Of a stretch of 7,011 nt of DNA, positions 594 to 6,616 are shown one piece after another; positions within the stretch are counted from its first letter, which is position 1, and every line of letters starts with the position of its first letter. The DNA is from Spirochaetaceae bacterium (lineage in GTDB: Bacteria; Spirochaetota; Spirochaetia; Spirochaetales_E; Spirochaetaceae_B): positions 1 to 7,011 of the forward strand of contig QKJO01000181.1 of assembly GCA_003249275.1 (NCBI GenBank). Reading direction: 5' to 3'. The position numbers and the translations under genes were made by a program. Under the pieces are notes generated by a model. It was not told the origin of the DNA, did not search any database, and worked only from the letters and a program-made list of their open reading frames with translations.

Positions 594-1262
594 ATGAAAG
601 TCAAATTTTTGGTCCTCATTCTGCCCCTTCTTCTCATTCTCTCCTGTACCAATGAAAAGACGAGGAACAGCGGAACATCAGCCGTCATAACAGGCAAGAT
701 CATCGCCATGGACGGTTCGGTCACGATCAGCGGAAAATCGGCTCAGCCCGGTGACACGGTTAACGATGGCGCCGTAGTCGCCACATCGGGTGACGGGTAC
801 TGCGAGATCCAGTTTCTGGGCAGCAACATTATTAAAATTTTCGAAGATTCCATTCTCAGAATCTCCTTCAGGGACTCCACTGTCTCCCTGGACCGTGGTG
901 CGGCGGCAGCCGTCCTCAGGAATATCGGAACTCTGATCCAGTCCATGGATGACGTCTTCAGAATCGAATCGGGAGCCGTAGTGGCCGGTATCAGAGGAAC
1001 CTCCTTTTATATGCAGAGAGAGGATGCCGATACCGCCTACTTCTGTCTGTGCAACGGGGAGATTCATCTCGGAGACTCGGAGGGCAAATACTCCCAGCTC
1101 ATGCAGAACACCCACCACGGCGCCGTCAGAATCACCGAACAGAACAGACAGATCGAAGTGCGCAAAGCCCCCATGCTCTATCACACGGACAGCGCCATGG
1201 AGGCCCTGGCATCAGCCATAGGCCAGACAATGGACTGGACCCGGGTTGAAAAATCTCACTGA
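594..1262 (+). CDS. FecR-domain lipoprotein
   Basis: This is a 222-residue predicted lipoprotein. Residues 1-17 are a signal peptide (K2, K4, then a Leu/Ile-rich core) ending in L-I-L-S-C18, a relaxed lipobox of the kind spirochaetes accept, so Cys18 is the likely lipidated residue. Residues about 36-160 look like a FecR domain: GSVTISGKSAQPGDTVNDGAV, then a beta-rich stretch with SILRIS, and the hallmark VAGIRGTSFYM at about 130-140. The protein is thus probably anchored in the periplasm or at the surface with a beta-rich domain. It lacks the cytoplasmic N-terminal segment and transmembrane helix of true FecR anti-sigma regulators, so that role is unlikely. A strong GGAGGAG at 582-588 sits 5 nt before the ATG and fixes the start. 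Two close cysteines (C151, C153) lie in YFCLCNG near the domain's end. The gene ends tail to tail in the peptidase gene with a 7-bp overlap. Its binding partner is unknown. Confidence 0.85.
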   Translation: MKVKFLVLILPLLLILSCTNEKTRNSGTSAVITGKIIAMDGSVTISGKSAQPGDTVNDGAVVATSGDGYCEIQFLGSNIIKIFEDSILRISFRDSTVSLDRGAAAAVLRNIGTLIQSMDDVFRIESGAVVAGIRGTSFYMQREDADTAYFCLCNGEIHLGDSEGKYSQLMQNTHHGAVRITEQNRQIEVRKAPMLYHTDSAMEALASAIGQTMDWTRVEKSH

Positions 1263-3055
1263 AGGAGTTCACTCTCCATCTGATCGACAAGTGAGGCAAA
1301 ACGTCCCAGGGCTCTGTTGACGGCATCGGGACGGCTCATATCCACTCCGGCGGTCTTCAGGGACTCAAGGGGAAATCTGCTGCCTCCCGATTTGAGGAAA
1401 TTCAGATAGTTCTCCCTCTCTCTGACGCCCCCTTCCAGAACCATGTCCGAAAGAGCCATGGCAGCCGAGAGTCCCGTGGCATACTTGTAGACGTAGAAGG
1501 CGTTGTAGAAGTGGGGAATCCTGAGCCCCTCCAGGTCGGCGGCCTCATCCAGTACAACATCCCGGCCGAAATATTTCTCCAGCAGGGCTCTGTATTCAGA
1601 CCGGAGTCTGTCCACGGTCAGAGGCTGTCCCTCCTCGGCGAGGGCATGACAGATCTGCTCATATTCGGCGAACATGGTCTGCCGGTAGATGGTGGCCAGA
1701 ATATCGTCAATCTGCCGACCCAGAAGGTAAAGAGTCATCTCCTTCGATGCACTGTGGTCCAAAAGATATCGTCCCAGAAGCTGCTCATTGAAGGTGGACG
1801 CCACTTCGGCCTCAAAGATCGTATAGTTGTAGTACTGGAAGGGATTGTTCCGGACCGAATACCAGGAGTGCATGGAATGTCCGCCCTCGTGGGCCAGGGT
1901 GAACACATCCCGTATGTCATCCTCCTTGAAGTTCATGAGGATGTAGGGCTCTCCCTTGTAGGAACCTGCGGAAAAGGCGCCCGACCGTTTCCCCTTGTTT
2001 TCATACCGGTCCACCCAGCCGCCCGTCAGACCAGAGTTCAGAACACGGACGTACTCGTCTCCCATCGGGGACAGGGCCTTCATGATCACATCCACTGCAT
2101 CATCATAGCTGTGCCTGACACTCATATCCGGGATCAGGGAAACCTTGGTATCATAGAGTCTCAGATCCTCCAGTCCGAGAACCTTTTTTCTGAGGCTGTA
2201 ATACCTGTGGAGAGGCTTCAGATTTTCCGAAACCGACGCCACCAGATTGTCATAGACCTCCAGCGGGACATTGTCGGGAAAAAGACTGGCTTCCCGGGAT
2301 GATTTGAATCCCCTGACTCTTGAAGTATAGACATCTCTGAGGACGCTGCCCCCGTATAGTTCGGCAAGGGTGTTTTTATGATCGTCGAAGCAGCTGTAAA
2401 ACCGGGTATAGGCCTCCTTGCGGACCGCTCTGTCGGGATCAAGGAGAAACACGCCATAGGTGGAGTTCGTCAGTTCACGTTCTTCACCCTTCACAGTGAC
2501 GGTCCCGAATTTCATATCCCCGTTGGTGAGGGCGGAGAAGGCTTTCCGGGCTGTCTGGGCGGACTCGGCCTGGAGAGCCAGCAGATTTTCCTCTCCCTCA
2601 GAGAGAATATGGGGTTTGAACCGGATCATTCTTTCCAGCGGAATACGAAACTCCTTCAATACAGGATCCTTCAGATAGGAGTTGAGGCGGTCTTCCGGCA
2701 ATGACTGAATCTCAGGCTTCAGATAGCTGGATGCGGCGCTGCATCTGGTGGCAGCGGAGACATACCTTGAAAACCGGCCCATGGAGGAACTGTCGGCCAC
2801 GTTCTCCTCCTTCCGGAGCATGGCATAGTACCCCAGGCGCTCATCCAGAATCTCCAGCCTGTTGAAGAATTCAAGGCATTCCAGAAGTCTCCCTGCCGAC
2901 TCCCCCAGAGTTCCCTTGAAGCTGCCGATTTCGGGAATCAGAGCCTCCAGCTCCTTCAGACCCTCCTCCCAGGCCTGTTCATCCCGGAAAAGGGAGTCAA
3001 GTTTCCATTTGTCAGATGCGGGTATATCCTTTCTCTCTTTGATGATGCTGCTCAT
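1256..3055 (-). CDS. pepF: Oligoendopeptidase F (M3B metallopeptidase)
   Basis: This is a 599-residue zinc endopeptidase of family M3B, about the usual length for PepF (around 600). It has no signal peptide and is expected to cleave short peptides in the cytosol. The zinc site is H389-E-G-G-H393 within TLAHEGGHSMHSW, with E417 in FEAEVASTFNE as the third ligand. C-terminal features of the family are also present (IPHFYNAFYVYKYATGLSAA, about 513-532). The N-terminal half carries the helical oligoendopeptidase domain. The ATG (3053-3055) overlaps the TGA of the pyrophosphatase gene as ATGA, and GGAGGA lies 6 nt upstream inside that gene, so the two are translationally coupled. This is the last gene of the apparent operon. 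Its stop falls within the 3' end of the opposing lipoprotein gene and I see no terminator hairpin there. Substrate specificity cannot be read from sequence. Confidence 0.96.
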   Translation of the reverse strand: MSSIIKERKDIPASDKWKLDSLFRDEQAWEEGLKELEALIPEIGSFKGTLGESAGRLLECLEFFNRLEILDERLGYYAMLRKEENVADSSSMGRFSRYVSAATRCSAASSYLKPEIQSLPEDRLNSYLKDPVLKEFRIPLERMIRFKPHILSEGEENLLALQAESAQTARKAFSALTNGDMKFGTVTVKGEERELTNSTYGVFLLDPDRAVRKEAYTRFYSCFDDHKNTLAELYGGSVLRDVYTSRVRGFKSSREASLFPDNVPLEVYDNLVASVSENLKPLHRYYSLRKKVLGLEDLRLYDTKVSLIPDMSVRHSYDDAVDVIMKALSPMGDEYVRVLNSGLTGGWVDRYENKGKRSGAFSAGSYKGEPYILMNFKEDDIRDVFTLAHEGGHSMHSWYSVRNNPFQYYNYTIFEAEVASTFNEQLLGRYLLDHSASKEMTLYLLGRQIDDILATIYRQTMFAEYEQICHALAEEGQPLTVDRLRSEYRALLEKYFGRDVVLDEAADLEGLRIPHFYNAFYVYKYATGLSAAMALSDMVLEGGVRERENYLNFLKSGGSRFPLESLKTAGVDMSRPDAVNRALGRFASLVDQMESELLQ

Positions 3056-3642
3056 GCGATATCCTCCAGTATGGCTCTCATGACCTTGCCGGCCTTTCCT
3101 CTGTGGGAAACCAGATTTTTCTCTTCTTCCGAGAGTTCGGCCGCCGTCCTGCCCGACAGGGCATCCACGAAAACGGGGTCATAACCGAAGCCTCCCCCGC
3201 CGAAGGGCGAGTCGGCAATCCAACCGTCAAAAGATTCCTGTACCGAATACACCCTGTAGGGAGCGGTGATAAGAACCATGGCGCAGACAAAGAAGGCGGA
3301 CCGGTCTGCCGCTCCCTCCATATTTTTCAAAAGGAGAACATTCCGGTCTGCATCGGTCAGAAGCGTCCCTTCCTGGTCGGAACCGTATCTGGCGGAGTAG
3401 ATGCCCGGACCTCCGTCCAGAGCACTGACGCAGAGTCCCGAATCATCCGCCAGAACCGGTCTGCCTGCCAGGGCATACAGCGTCTCAGCCTTAAGCAGAG
3501 CATTTTCCATAAAGGTCCGGCCCGTCTCATCGCAATCAAAAATCAGTCCCAGATCGGAGGGAATGAGTATCCTGTGGCCGGAGAGAATCTTCTCCAGCTC
3601 CCTTTTCTTATGCATATTTCCTGTAGCGAGTACTATTTCCAT
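3052..3642 (-). CDS. rdgB: XTP/dITP pyrophosphatase (RdgB/Ham1 family)
   Basis: This nucleoside-triphosphate pyrophosphatase hydrolyses non-canonical purine nucleotides (dITP, XTP) to monophosphates and so keeps deaminated bases out of DNA and RNA. From the ATG at 3642 the protein is 196 residues, typical of the family. Motifs in order: LATGNMHKKREL at 5-16 (T7, G8, N9, K12 in the nucleotide-binding loop), LADDSGLCVSALDGGPGIYS at 64-83 with the acidic pair D66-D67, GFGYDPVF at 151-158, and SHRGKA at 179-184. A TTG at 3660 in the same frame would add MDYLHV, but family members start directly at the LATGN strand, so 3642 is preferred. Neither start has a strong Shine-Dalgarno; re-initiation from the preceding gene, which stops 27 nt upstream, may supply ribosomes. 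The 3' end overlaps pepF by 4 bp. Confidence 0.95.
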   Translation of the reverse strand: MEIVLATGNMHKKRELEKILSGHRILIPSDLGLIFDCDETGRTFMENALLKAETLYALAGRPVLADDSGLCVSALDGGPGIYSARYGSDQEGTLLTDADRNVLLLKNMEGAADRSAFFVCAMVLITAPYRVYSVQESFDGWIADSPFGGGGFGYDPVFVDALSGRTAAELSEEEKNLVSHRGKAGKVMRAILEDIA

Positions 3643-3669: not shown

Positions 3670-4554
3670 TCAGCGCAACCTGACTTTCTCTTTCAGTTTC
3701 TCCAGATAGGATCTCAGGTAGAAGAGTCCTGAATCCACCGATCCCTTGGGAATCTTCAGGACCCCGGCAATATCCTCGTTACTGGGCATGAGGGGGATGG
3801 CTTTCAACTGTTCATCCAGTCTGCGGATTCTTCTGCGGTACAGACAGGATCTGTTTTCAAGAGAAGCGCACTGATGACGGTCTACACAGGAGGATCTTTT
3901 TTTCTCGTGAAAATTGAGCCTGAAATAGTTCTCGTTTCTCTTGAGGGTCAGAATCTCTCTGCGGCGGCACTTCTTCTCCAGTGCCGTCAGAAGTTCCGAC
4001 CGGAGGAGAACAGCCTTCTGCTTTGAGGGACCCAGAAAAGGGAAGGCGCCGAGATAGTCGTCTTCACTCAGGGATGCTATATTTTTAAGAACCATGAGCA
4101 GAAGCCTGTGCTTGAGTGATTCCATTCTAACCGGAGTCATTTTTGATGTTTCGACAATGCATTTCAGTTTCTCGATCAGAGAAAACTCGGCATCCTCATT
4201 CTCTCTGCAGAAATCGTATTCAATGATCGATTCCCTCTCATGAATCCACTCTTCATTTCTGCACTTCTGATCGTCTCTGTAGAATGTCCTGAGCTGCCAG
4301 GAGAGCACCTTGTTCAGATAACAGAGGAAGGAAAGCCCCCGGTATTCAAAGTTCATCACAATCGTATGAAGCCTGTTGGTGACGCTGAGAAGAAAATCGC
4401 TCCACTCTTCTTCTCTCAGTGACTTCCGGTAGCCGGGGAAGGTATAGACATGGAGGCTCAGTTCATCCATCAGTACCCGGTGATTCTCCCCCCTGTCCCC
4501 ATCGGAAACTGTACTCTGATAAACGAGCACCTGGTGAGTCATATAATCCATCAT
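3670..4554 (-). CDS. Divergent sigma-70-like protein with long cysteine-rich middle
   Basis: This 294-residue protein has no secretion signal or membrane segment. I do not recognise an exact family, but both ends look like a sigma factor. Residues about 50-97 (EWSDFLLSVTNRLHTIVMNF, then SFLCYLNKVLSWQLRTFYRD) follow the sigma region 2 pattern of a helix, then F..YL...L...LR.F.R. Residues 257-294 contain SNEDIAGVLKIPKGSVDSGL followed by FYLRSYLEKLKEK, a good match to a region-4 helix-turn-helix (EEIA..L.I..G.V.S.L...R..L). The roughly 160 residues between are charged and helical, longer than in ECF sigmas, and hold C223, H227, C229 and C237, which could bind metal or act as a redox switch. AAGGAG (minus strand, 4563-4568) is 8 nt before the ATG. 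A -24/-12 promoter match lies just upstream. Two in-frame ATGs (4554, 4551) are adjacent. It heads an operon with rdgB and pepF. The sigma role is inferred; a non-sigma DNA-binding protein remains possible. Confidence 0.6.
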   Translation of the reverse strand: MMDYMTHQVLVYQSTVSDGDRGENHRVLMDELSLHVYTFPGYRKSLREEEWSDFLLSVTNRLHTIVMNFEYRGLSFLCYLNKVLSWQLRTFYRDDQKCRNEEWIHERESIIEYDFCRENEDAEFSLIEKLKCIVETSKMTPVRMESLKHRLLLMVLKNIASLSEDDYLGAFPFLGPSKQKAVLLRSELLTALEKKCRRREILTLKRNENYFRLNFHEKKRSSCVDRHQCASLENRSCLYRRRIRRLDEQLKAIPLMPSNEDIAGVLKIPKGSVDSGLFYLRSYLEKLKEKVRLR

Positions 4555-4561
4555 ATAGTAA

Positions 4562-4583
4562 ACTCCTTTTCATTTTAAGGAGT
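4562..4583 (-). promoter_or_regulatory. Potential Shine-Dalgarno-sequestering hairpin
   Basis: On the minus-strand RNA, ACTCCTT (4577-4583) can pair with AAGGAGT (4562-4568) in a perfect 7-bp stem with an 8-nt loop. The 3' arm is the Shine-Dalgarno of the sigma-like gene, so the fold would hide it. If transcription starts from the predicted -24/-12 promoter (about 4572), the 5' arm is not transcribed and the site stays open. The hairpin would then act only on read-through RNA from trpS. Confidence 0.4.
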
Positions 4584-4598
4584 GCAAGATTCAGGCCA
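4583..4598 (-). promoter_or_regulatory. Candidate sigma-54 (-24/-12) promoter of the sigma-like operon
   Basis: Minus strand: TGGC (4595-4598) and TTGCA (4583-4587) are spaced so that the invariant GG and GC are exactly 10 bp apart, as required by RpoN holoenzyme. The flanking G of the TGGCACG consensus is also matched. With C(-12) at 4584, the start would be near 4572, giving an 18-nt leader that contains AAGGAG at proper distance from the ATG at 4554. Sigma-54 promoters need an AAA+ enhancer-binding activator; none is encoded in the window and I see no clear enhancer site. No equally good sigma-70 promoter is visible in this gap. Confidence 0.6.
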
Positions 4599-4604
4599 TC
4601 AGAT

Positions 4605-4638
4605 AAAAAAAGAGGAATTCAGTAAAGAATTCCTCTTT
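4605..4638 (-). terminator. Rho-independent terminator of trpS
   Basis: The minus strand carries a perfect 12-bp inverted repeat, AAAGAGGAATTC (4627-4638) and GAATTCCTCTTT (4609-4620), around the 6-nt loop TTTACT. The T-run continues past the stem (4605-4608), giving seven T in a row. It lies 34 bp after the trpS stop codon and separates trpS from the sigma-like operon. On the plus strand only three T follow the stem, so it is oriented for leftward transcripts. Confidence 0.9.
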
Positions 4639-4672
4639 GCAAACCGGTATCTTAAGAATTTATTAAGAATAA

Positions 4673-5929: not shown

Positions 5930-6616
5930 ATGGCACTGATTTTTGTAATTGAAGATAATGAATCGATCCGGGAAGCGGTTTCAGGGTATCTGAAACTCTC
6001 TGATTATGAGGTGGAAGAGTTTGAAGCTCTGGGCGGAGTCAAAGAGGCGATCGCTTCGAGAAATCCGGAACTTTTAATTCTGGATGCCATGCTCCCGGAC
6101 GGAGACGGGTTTATTTTTGCCAAGGAAATCAGACAGAAATCGGACATCCCCATCATTTTTATGACGGCAAGAGAGTCCGAGTCTGACAGGATCACCGGGT
6201 TCGAGGTGGGAGCGGATGACTATATCGTCAAACCCTTCTCTCCCAAGGAACTGGTACTGAGGGTCGGAGCAGTCCTGAAAAGAACGGGAACAGCTCTTCC
6301 TCAGAAAAAAACGCAGGGCTGGGTTCTGAGCGGTCAGGTACTGACAACCGATGAGGACTCCCACAAAGCCATGCTGAACAATCAGCTTCTGAAGCTGACT
6401 GCCGCGGAGTGGAAAATTCTCCTGTATCTCTCTTCCAATGGCGGAGCCGTTGTCTCCCGGGAGCAGATACTGGACCGCTGTCTTGAGTACTCTTTCGAGG
6501 GGTATGACAGAACAGTGGATACCCACATTAAAACCCTCCGGGCCAAACTTCAGAATCCCGACTGGATCGAAACTGTAAGGGGCTACGGCTACAGGTTTGC
6601 AGGAAACAGTAAATGA
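5930..6616 (+). CDS. OmpR/PhoB-family response regulator
   Basis: This 228-residue two-component transcription factor has a complete receiver domain at about 3-117: acidic pair E8-D9, phosphoacceptor D52 in LLILDAMLPDGDG, switch T79 in FMTARE, and K101-P102 in DDYIVKPFSPKEL. A linker (about 118-132) joins a winged-helix DNA-binding domain at about 133-226, with LKLTAAEWKILLYLSSNGG, VVSREQILDRC, the recognition-helix region DRTVDTHIKTLRAKL, and the wing WIETVRGYGYRFAG. It is therefore expected to be phosphorylated at D52 and to bind direct repeats at target promoters as a dimer. The first ATG is used because the protein starts at the first beta strand as usual; the Shine-Dalgarno is weak. It overlaps the following sensor gene by 4 bp (ATGA). 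The regulon cannot be told from sequence, so I give no symbol. Confidence 0.95.
   Translation: MALIFVIEDNESIREAVSGYLKLSDYEVEEFEALGGVKEAIASRNPELLILDAMLPDGDGFIFAKEIRQKSDIPIIFMTARESESDRITGFEVGADDYIVKPFSPKELVLRVGAVLKRTGTALPQKKTQGWVLSGQVLTTDEDSHKAMLNNQLLKLTAAEWKILLYLSSNGGAVVSREQILDRCLEYSFEGYDRTVDTHIKTLRAKLQNPDWIETVRGYGYRFAGNSK

Follow-up and report, generated by a model that had tools for sequence, protein, structure and literature searches.

In Borrelia, RpoN (sigma-54) drives rpoS (PMC3037356; PMC12655853), and in Borrelia burgdorferi the Fur-like co-activator BosR is described as binding a direct repeat, TAAATTAAAT, at the sigma-54 promoter of rpoS (PMC3037356). In Pseudomonas syringae, RpoN and the enhancer-binding proteins HrpRS are reported to drive hrpL, the gene of an extracytoplasmic function (ECF) sigma factor (PMC7691447). 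Here we describe a related arrangement in a 7,011-nucleotide stretch of DNA from a Spirochaetaceae bacterium (contig QKJO01000181.1; the whole stretch is hereafter called the window), in which the -24/-12 sigma-54 promoter element TGGCCTGAATCTTGCA lies on the minus strand, before the gene of a divergent sigma-70/ECF-like protein.

Like the Rrp2-RpoN-RpoS pathway of B. burgdorferi, as far as it is set out in these sources, the locus places an RpoN promoter before a sigma-70-family gene in a spirochaete, with a direct repeat at the promoter. It is unlike that pathway in its target, a divergent ECF-like protein encoded in a probable operon with rdgB, and in its repeat, whose spacing is 10-11 bp and whose GTAA form keeps phase with the promoter. 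The sequence-only reading had recognised the RpoN-RpoS logic of Borrelia with a different downstream protein, and the parallel is apt; the target is not RpoS (a group 2 sigma factor), as relatives of the window gene match ECF-type models and RpoS-like genes are separate. Because the Borrelia-like genomes examined yielded no member of the sigma-like family, we read the gene as a separate branch and not as the same cascade. An RpoN promoter before an ECF-type sigma gene is also found in the HrpRS-RpoN-HrpL system; HrpL, going by its description, serves the genes of type III secretion within a single lineage, whereas the present family carries a predicted coiled-coil insert and extends across a class. 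With ECF/sigma-70 factors (TIGR02937) the protein shares a region 2-like N-terminus and a region 4-like C-terminus, but it differs from them in an insert of ~130-150 residues, largely coiled-coil in the model, and in an altered region 4 helix. The features that appear to be new here are the family that is targeted, how widely it occurs, the operon it is part of and the phased repeat.

The promoter and its conservation

The minus strand from 4598 to 4583 reads TGGCCTGAATCTTGCA, in agreement with the earlier assignment of TGGC and TTGCA to the correct strand at GG-N10-GC spacing, and this is the single exact occurrence of TGGC-N7-TTGCW in the window. By simple arithmetic about 0.1 exact sites are expected window-wide on both strands and about 0.001 in the 118-nt gap before the gene, in line with the earlier judgement that chance placement in the gap is unlikely. 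Sites with up to two mismatches number 30 in the window versus 30.4 expected from shuffles, so that one window alone cannot prove a promoter; the exact site is modest evidence, and conservation decides.

Sigma-54 promoters follow the consensus TGGCAYG-N4-TTGCW, with 12 scored positions. For 108 different orthologues the upstream sequence was scored against this one fixed consensus, a site being defined as at least 10 matches within 150 nt upstream. Such a site, with GG-N10-G[C/T] in each case, is present upstream of 91 of the 108 orthologues. Among other open reading frames (at least 200 codons, from loci L001-L041, a mechanical list that includes many that are not real genes) the same scoring was positive for only 6 of 231, and on the opposite strand for 1/108 regions. 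This comparison, which is stronger evidence than the arithmetic for the gap, leads us to reject a chance match of the motif, and the promoter before the sigma-like gene is in all likelihood genuine. From the upstream set L021 was omitted (35 nt upstream), as were L049, L052, L053, L071, L072 and L073 (duplicates or fragments); 13 of the 60 regions of a second set duplicated the first, and two loci that were cut or contained N were kept among the 108.

The score-selected sites never vary at either G of the -24 element or at the TG preceding -12; position -12 itself has C in 92% of them and T in the other 8%. An alignment of seven near relatives, the window included, shows TGGC and TTG invariant (7/7), together with six T of a T run and the second half of the direct repeat described below. 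The expectation that GG-N10-GC would be the most conserved upstream block thus holds in part: GG-N10-G belongs to the best-conserved blocks, along with the direct repeat and the T run. One detail is at odds with a strict GG-N10-GC wording: of the seven near relatives, three have C at -12 and four have T. Of the 108 orthologues, 17 fall under the threshold. Three of these (L017, L063 and L097) still carry GG-N10-GC, and among the other 14, L113, L120, L124 and L125 come from genomes of 1.5-1.8 Mb in which rpoN is present with a weaker profile match.

On the minus strand, 118 nt separate the trpS stop (4673) from the start of the sigma-like gene (4554). In order, this gap holds the direct repeat, a terminator-like hairpin with a T run, TGGCCTGAATCTTGCA, AAGGAG and the ATG:

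4652..4669, minus strand: direct repeat TTCTTAA-N4-TTCTTAA, candidate activator or co-activator site, 53 nt upstream of TGG
4602..4638, minus strand: terminator-like hairpin after trpS, 12-pair stem at 4609-4638, then a T tail
4583..4598, minus strand: -24/-12 sigma-54 promoter TGGCCTGAATCTTGCA, GG-N10-GC with TGGC and TTGCA, conserved in orthologues
4562..4583, minus strand: inverted repeat ACTCCTT / AAGGAGT, 7-bp stem
4555..4572, minus strand: predicted leader of 18 nt, from the -12 position, with AAGGAG at 4563-4568

The C of the -12 element at 4584 predicts a transcript start at 4572, which leaves AAGGAG (4568-4563) as Shine-Dalgarno before the ATG at 4554. The 118-nt gap behind a terminator and the 18-nt leader with a placed Shine-Dalgarno, both noted earlier, are recovered with these coordinates; hairpins of the terminator-like class occur in the window at the shuffle rate (7 versus 7.5 expected). 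The right arm of the inverted repeat contains the Shine-Dalgarno, and the left arm lies between -12 and +1. As read from the sequence, it would mask the Shine-Dalgarno of read-through transcripts and leave it free in RNA begun at 4572. Of 66 orthologues (score of 10 or higher, Shine-Dalgarno present, leader long enough), 13 have stems of 5 bp or more at this place, versus 2.7% in shuffles.

A direct repeat phased to the promoter

Many relatives carry TGTAAA-N4-TGTAAA in place of TTCTTAA-N4-TTCTTAA. In the 96 of 108 regions that scored 9 or more and extend at least 95 nt upstream, related direct repeats were found in 56 (48 GTAA-N6-GTAA, six CTTAA-N6-CTTAA and two TCTTAA-N4-TCTTAA), at an expectation of 0.0015 per mononucleotide-shuffled region. 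The distance from GTAA repeat to promoter (n=48) is 27-30 nt in 16, 37-41 nt in 14 and 47-50 nt in 13 orthologues, with one case each at 65, 66, 69, 16 and 77 nt. These distances follow a 10-bp rhythm (R 0.76) that was not equalled once when a smoothed distribution was drawn from 20,000 times; the nominal p value is too small, as the sequences are related. On a quick protein tree, in which 19 of 45 inner branches are open, the distance classes (28, 38, 48, far and 16) change at least 12 times. In its GTAA form the repeat clusters at whole DNA turns from the promoter, at about 28, 38, 48 and 66 nt, and because of this clustering a protein bound at the repeat probably works together with sigma-54.

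A composite pattern of repeat, 34-64 nt and promoter, which excludes the 28-nt class, was sought in 25 genomes chosen partly for a known repeat. It gave 29 matches, 15 of them at the sigma-like gene, compared with four for the reversed pattern and four for a control with the spacing one base off; seven of the 25 genomes contained no match. The exact TTCTTAA-N4-TTCTTAA repeat occurs once each in three near relatives (G001, G014 and G016), always at the sigma-like gene, and three times in G015, once at the sigma-like gene and twice in a phage-like region. The latter two copies (L143/L149) are perfect repeats 52 bp apart, between phage integrase-like and phage capsid-like genes. G002 and G003 hold no exact repeat, but a one-mismatch copy at the sigma-like gene. 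With one mismatch allowed, repeat totals per genome resemble those of the reversed pattern.

The same layout of repeat and sigma-54 promoter, or a variant of it, also precedes a gene whose product, of ~400-480 residues, is putatively secreted. The genes at L171 (G235), L172 (G129), L181 (G009) and L182 (G139) are related to each other, and their products gave no convincing Pfam match; the gene at L211 (G210) is similar by eye only. In L171, L172 and L181 the neighbouring gene is presumably an acetate kinase. Among near relatives of the window, G001, G002, G014, G015 and G016 gave no match to this second target.

The sigma-like family, its probable operon and RpoN

The transcription unit proposed to follow the promoter comprises three genes:

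3670..4554, minus strand: sigma-70/ECF-like gene, 294 residues, assigned from the family alignment and profiles of relatives
3052..3642, minus strand: rdgB/Ham1-type nucleotide pyrophosphatase, 27 nt downstream of the sigma-like gene (PF01725, E 3.2e-54)
1256..3055, minus strand: pepF-like oligoendopeptidase, 4-nt overlap with the end of rdgB (PF01432, E 1.3e-72)

On its own, the window protein gives weak profile hits only, and none in Pfam. Homology to regions 2 and 4 is seen at family level, through the profile matches of relatives: TIGR02937 is matched by 42 of 71 family members, Sigma70_r4_2 by 14/71 and r2 by 4/71. The earlier label sigma-like is borne out by these matches, from which the window gene is placed in a divergent sigma-70/ECF-like family. 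In an AlphaFold2 (AF2) model of the window protein (mean predicted local distance difference test score (pLDDT) 91, predicted template modelling score (pTM) 0.70), helices 126-252 part the region 2-like N-terminus from the region 4-like C-terminus, where ECF factors have a short linker. This insert of ~130-150 residues is predicted to be largely a coiled-coil hairpin. Six columns are conserved in at least 90% of the 71 aligned rows (Y37, L80, R150, P269, G271 and S275), all but R150 in the sigma-like ends, and unusual residues of the altered region 4 helix are retained throughout the family.

More remote comparisons were less informative. The window protein gave nothing useful against solved structures by sequence, and its model gave no Foldseek match at E <= 0.001. 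The family alignment found sigma region 4 as best rows among solved structures, at E 0.012 and worse and mixed with unrelated coiled-coil proteins, and hhalign against one ECF factor of a relative returned a probability of 1.2%.

Homologues numbered 21 in a first search, the window's own included; a further search gave 41 loci, and 24 of 26 genomes of G001's family carry a member. Among 394 Spirochaetia genomes 338 contain a match at E <= 0.001, six of them with a best E above 1e-6 that could be other sigma factors. Sources name family members 'hypothetical protein' where they name them at all. A tblastn search of a plasmid collection revealed no relative, and in searches of open-licence PubMed Central papers no title or abstract opening came up that describes the family or its promoter.

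In the 103 loci with enough downstream sequence, rdgB lies -60 to 150 nt after the sigma-like gene in 76 and is recognised at all in 80; a pepF match is next in many of the loci compared. From this gene order the sigma-like gene and rdgB are probably co-transcribed, and pepF probably belongs to the same operon as rdgB. Twenty genomes lack a family match, and 16 of these have an rdgB match; when open reading frames near rdgB in the 16 were searched with the profile, no family member emerged (best E 0.48).

Two further genes of the window lie on the plus strand. An OmpR-type response regulator (5930-6616) adjoins trpS; it is 89-94% identical in L001, L002 and L003, more conserved there than the other window genes compared. 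A FecR-like putative lipoprotein (594-1262; PF04773, E 6.8e-6) has a relative at the corresponding place in L001.

The gene for RpoN itself (PF04552), for which a check had been advised at the outset, was found in relatives, in 12 of 12 and 78 of 80 spirochaete genomes, 77 of the 80 having been picked because they carry the sigma-like gene. Three genomes (G074, G163 and G105) have rpoN and no match to the family. Loss of rpoN and loss of the promoter do not go together cleanly: of the 14 genomes without a clear promoter, rpoN was not found in one, G025, and is present in the other 13. G029 has a promoter-like site, and rpoN was not found in its 1.4 Mb. The companion check concerned sigma-54 activators. 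PF00158 is matched in 14/14 genomes (4 to 23 matches per genome, weak AAA ones counted), but the same search was also positive in 14/14 control genomes, and the matches indicate availability only. For spirochetes an average of one or two sigma-54 activators has been given (PMC3162934).

RpoS-like genes of the relatives show similar upstream sites. All 21 genomes with a best match of 45% identity or more (L268-L288; G007 was identified by way of its promoter) have a GG-N10-G[C/T] site 15-37 nt ahead of the start, with scores of 11-12 except for 9 in L287 (L283 after correction of the start). Two Borrelia-like genomes (L289 and L290) also have such a site upstream of the RpoS-like gene, and none was seen at L291 and L292 (G011 and G024), where the best matches are 38 and 35% identical. 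A second RpoS-like paralogue shows sigma-54-like sites in four of five loci (L294-L297, scores 12, 12, 9 and 11); L293 could not be judged. Since the sites occur in 21/21 relatives, the reach of RpoN in these bacteria may extend beyond a single sigma gene, and its control of RpoS may go back to the ancestor of the group.

Weighing of explanations and implications

Taken as a whole, the locus is best explained by a genuine sigma-54 promoter and an RpoN-to-sigma-like cascade that includes RdgB and PepF, to which we assign a probability of about 0.75. The sites before orthologues and rpoN in relatives support the cascade that the sequence-only reading had proposed. RNA polymerase with RpoN would bind the -24/-12 element, and a protein on the direct repeat, on a fixed face of the helix, would help an AAA+ enhancer-binding protein to open the promoter, or would be that protein. 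Transcription from about 4572 would then yield the sigma-like protein, RdgB and PepF, and the sigma-like protein would most likely redirect RNA polymerase to a further set of genes.

Alternatively, the promoter may be real and the protein a sigma-derived regulator, such as a DNA-binding protein, an anti-sigma-like decoy or an RNA polymerase-binding factor. In that case RdgB and PepF may be the chief products of the unit. The long hairpin modelled between the sigma-like ends would suit such a role, as would the family-wide unusual region 4 residues, the linkage to rdgB and the absence of any Pfam match of the protein itself or Foldseek match of its model. However, relatives match sigma-70/ECF profiles at both ends, and five of the six most conserved columns sit in these ends, so that we consider this reading unlikely. 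A different doubt concerns the direct repeat, which could be the site of an independent regulator, a repressor or a second promoter of OmpR/CpxR-like type, placed in the same gap by chance. The GTAAA-N5-GTAAA layout resembles what we take to be the CpxR/OmpR type of site, and 40 of 96 regions with the promoter have no such repeat; against this stand the family-wide clustering of the distances between repeat and -24 at whole helical turns and the recurrence of the layout before the unrelated secreted-protein gene, which make an independent site unlikely.

Expression could finally depend on a sigma-70 promoter, TTAAAA-17-TATGAT at 4578-4550 being one candidate, with the sigma-54 motif a chance match. 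A sigma-70-like site matching at 9 of 12 positions does overlap the gene start, and sigma-54 near-matches are present at shuffle frequency. Sigma-70-like sites, however, are likewise at the shuffle rate (5 versus 5.1 expected), and the conservation of sigma-54-like sites before 91/108 orthologues leaves this explanation very little room.

The RpoN-to-sigma-like cascade suggests a widespread, little-noticed regulatory cascade in spirochaetes. In a broader picture, for and against which we hold the balance to be even, RpoN would be an ancient hub across Spirochaetia that drives an RpoS-like gene and, separately, a coiled-coil-insert sigma-70 group with rdgB; the second branch would be switched at short range from a phased repeat a few turns off, and would have been lost in Borrelia and other reduced genomes. 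For most of the Spirochaetia genomes examined, the analysis points to a putative regulator that has been kept, and it indicates where its promoter and activator are to be sought. The helical phasing of the repeat offers a clean genetic handle on possible short-range action of a sigma-54 activator, and the RpoN-RpoS cascade of Borrelia may be one surviving branch of a wider RpoN-to-sigma wiring.
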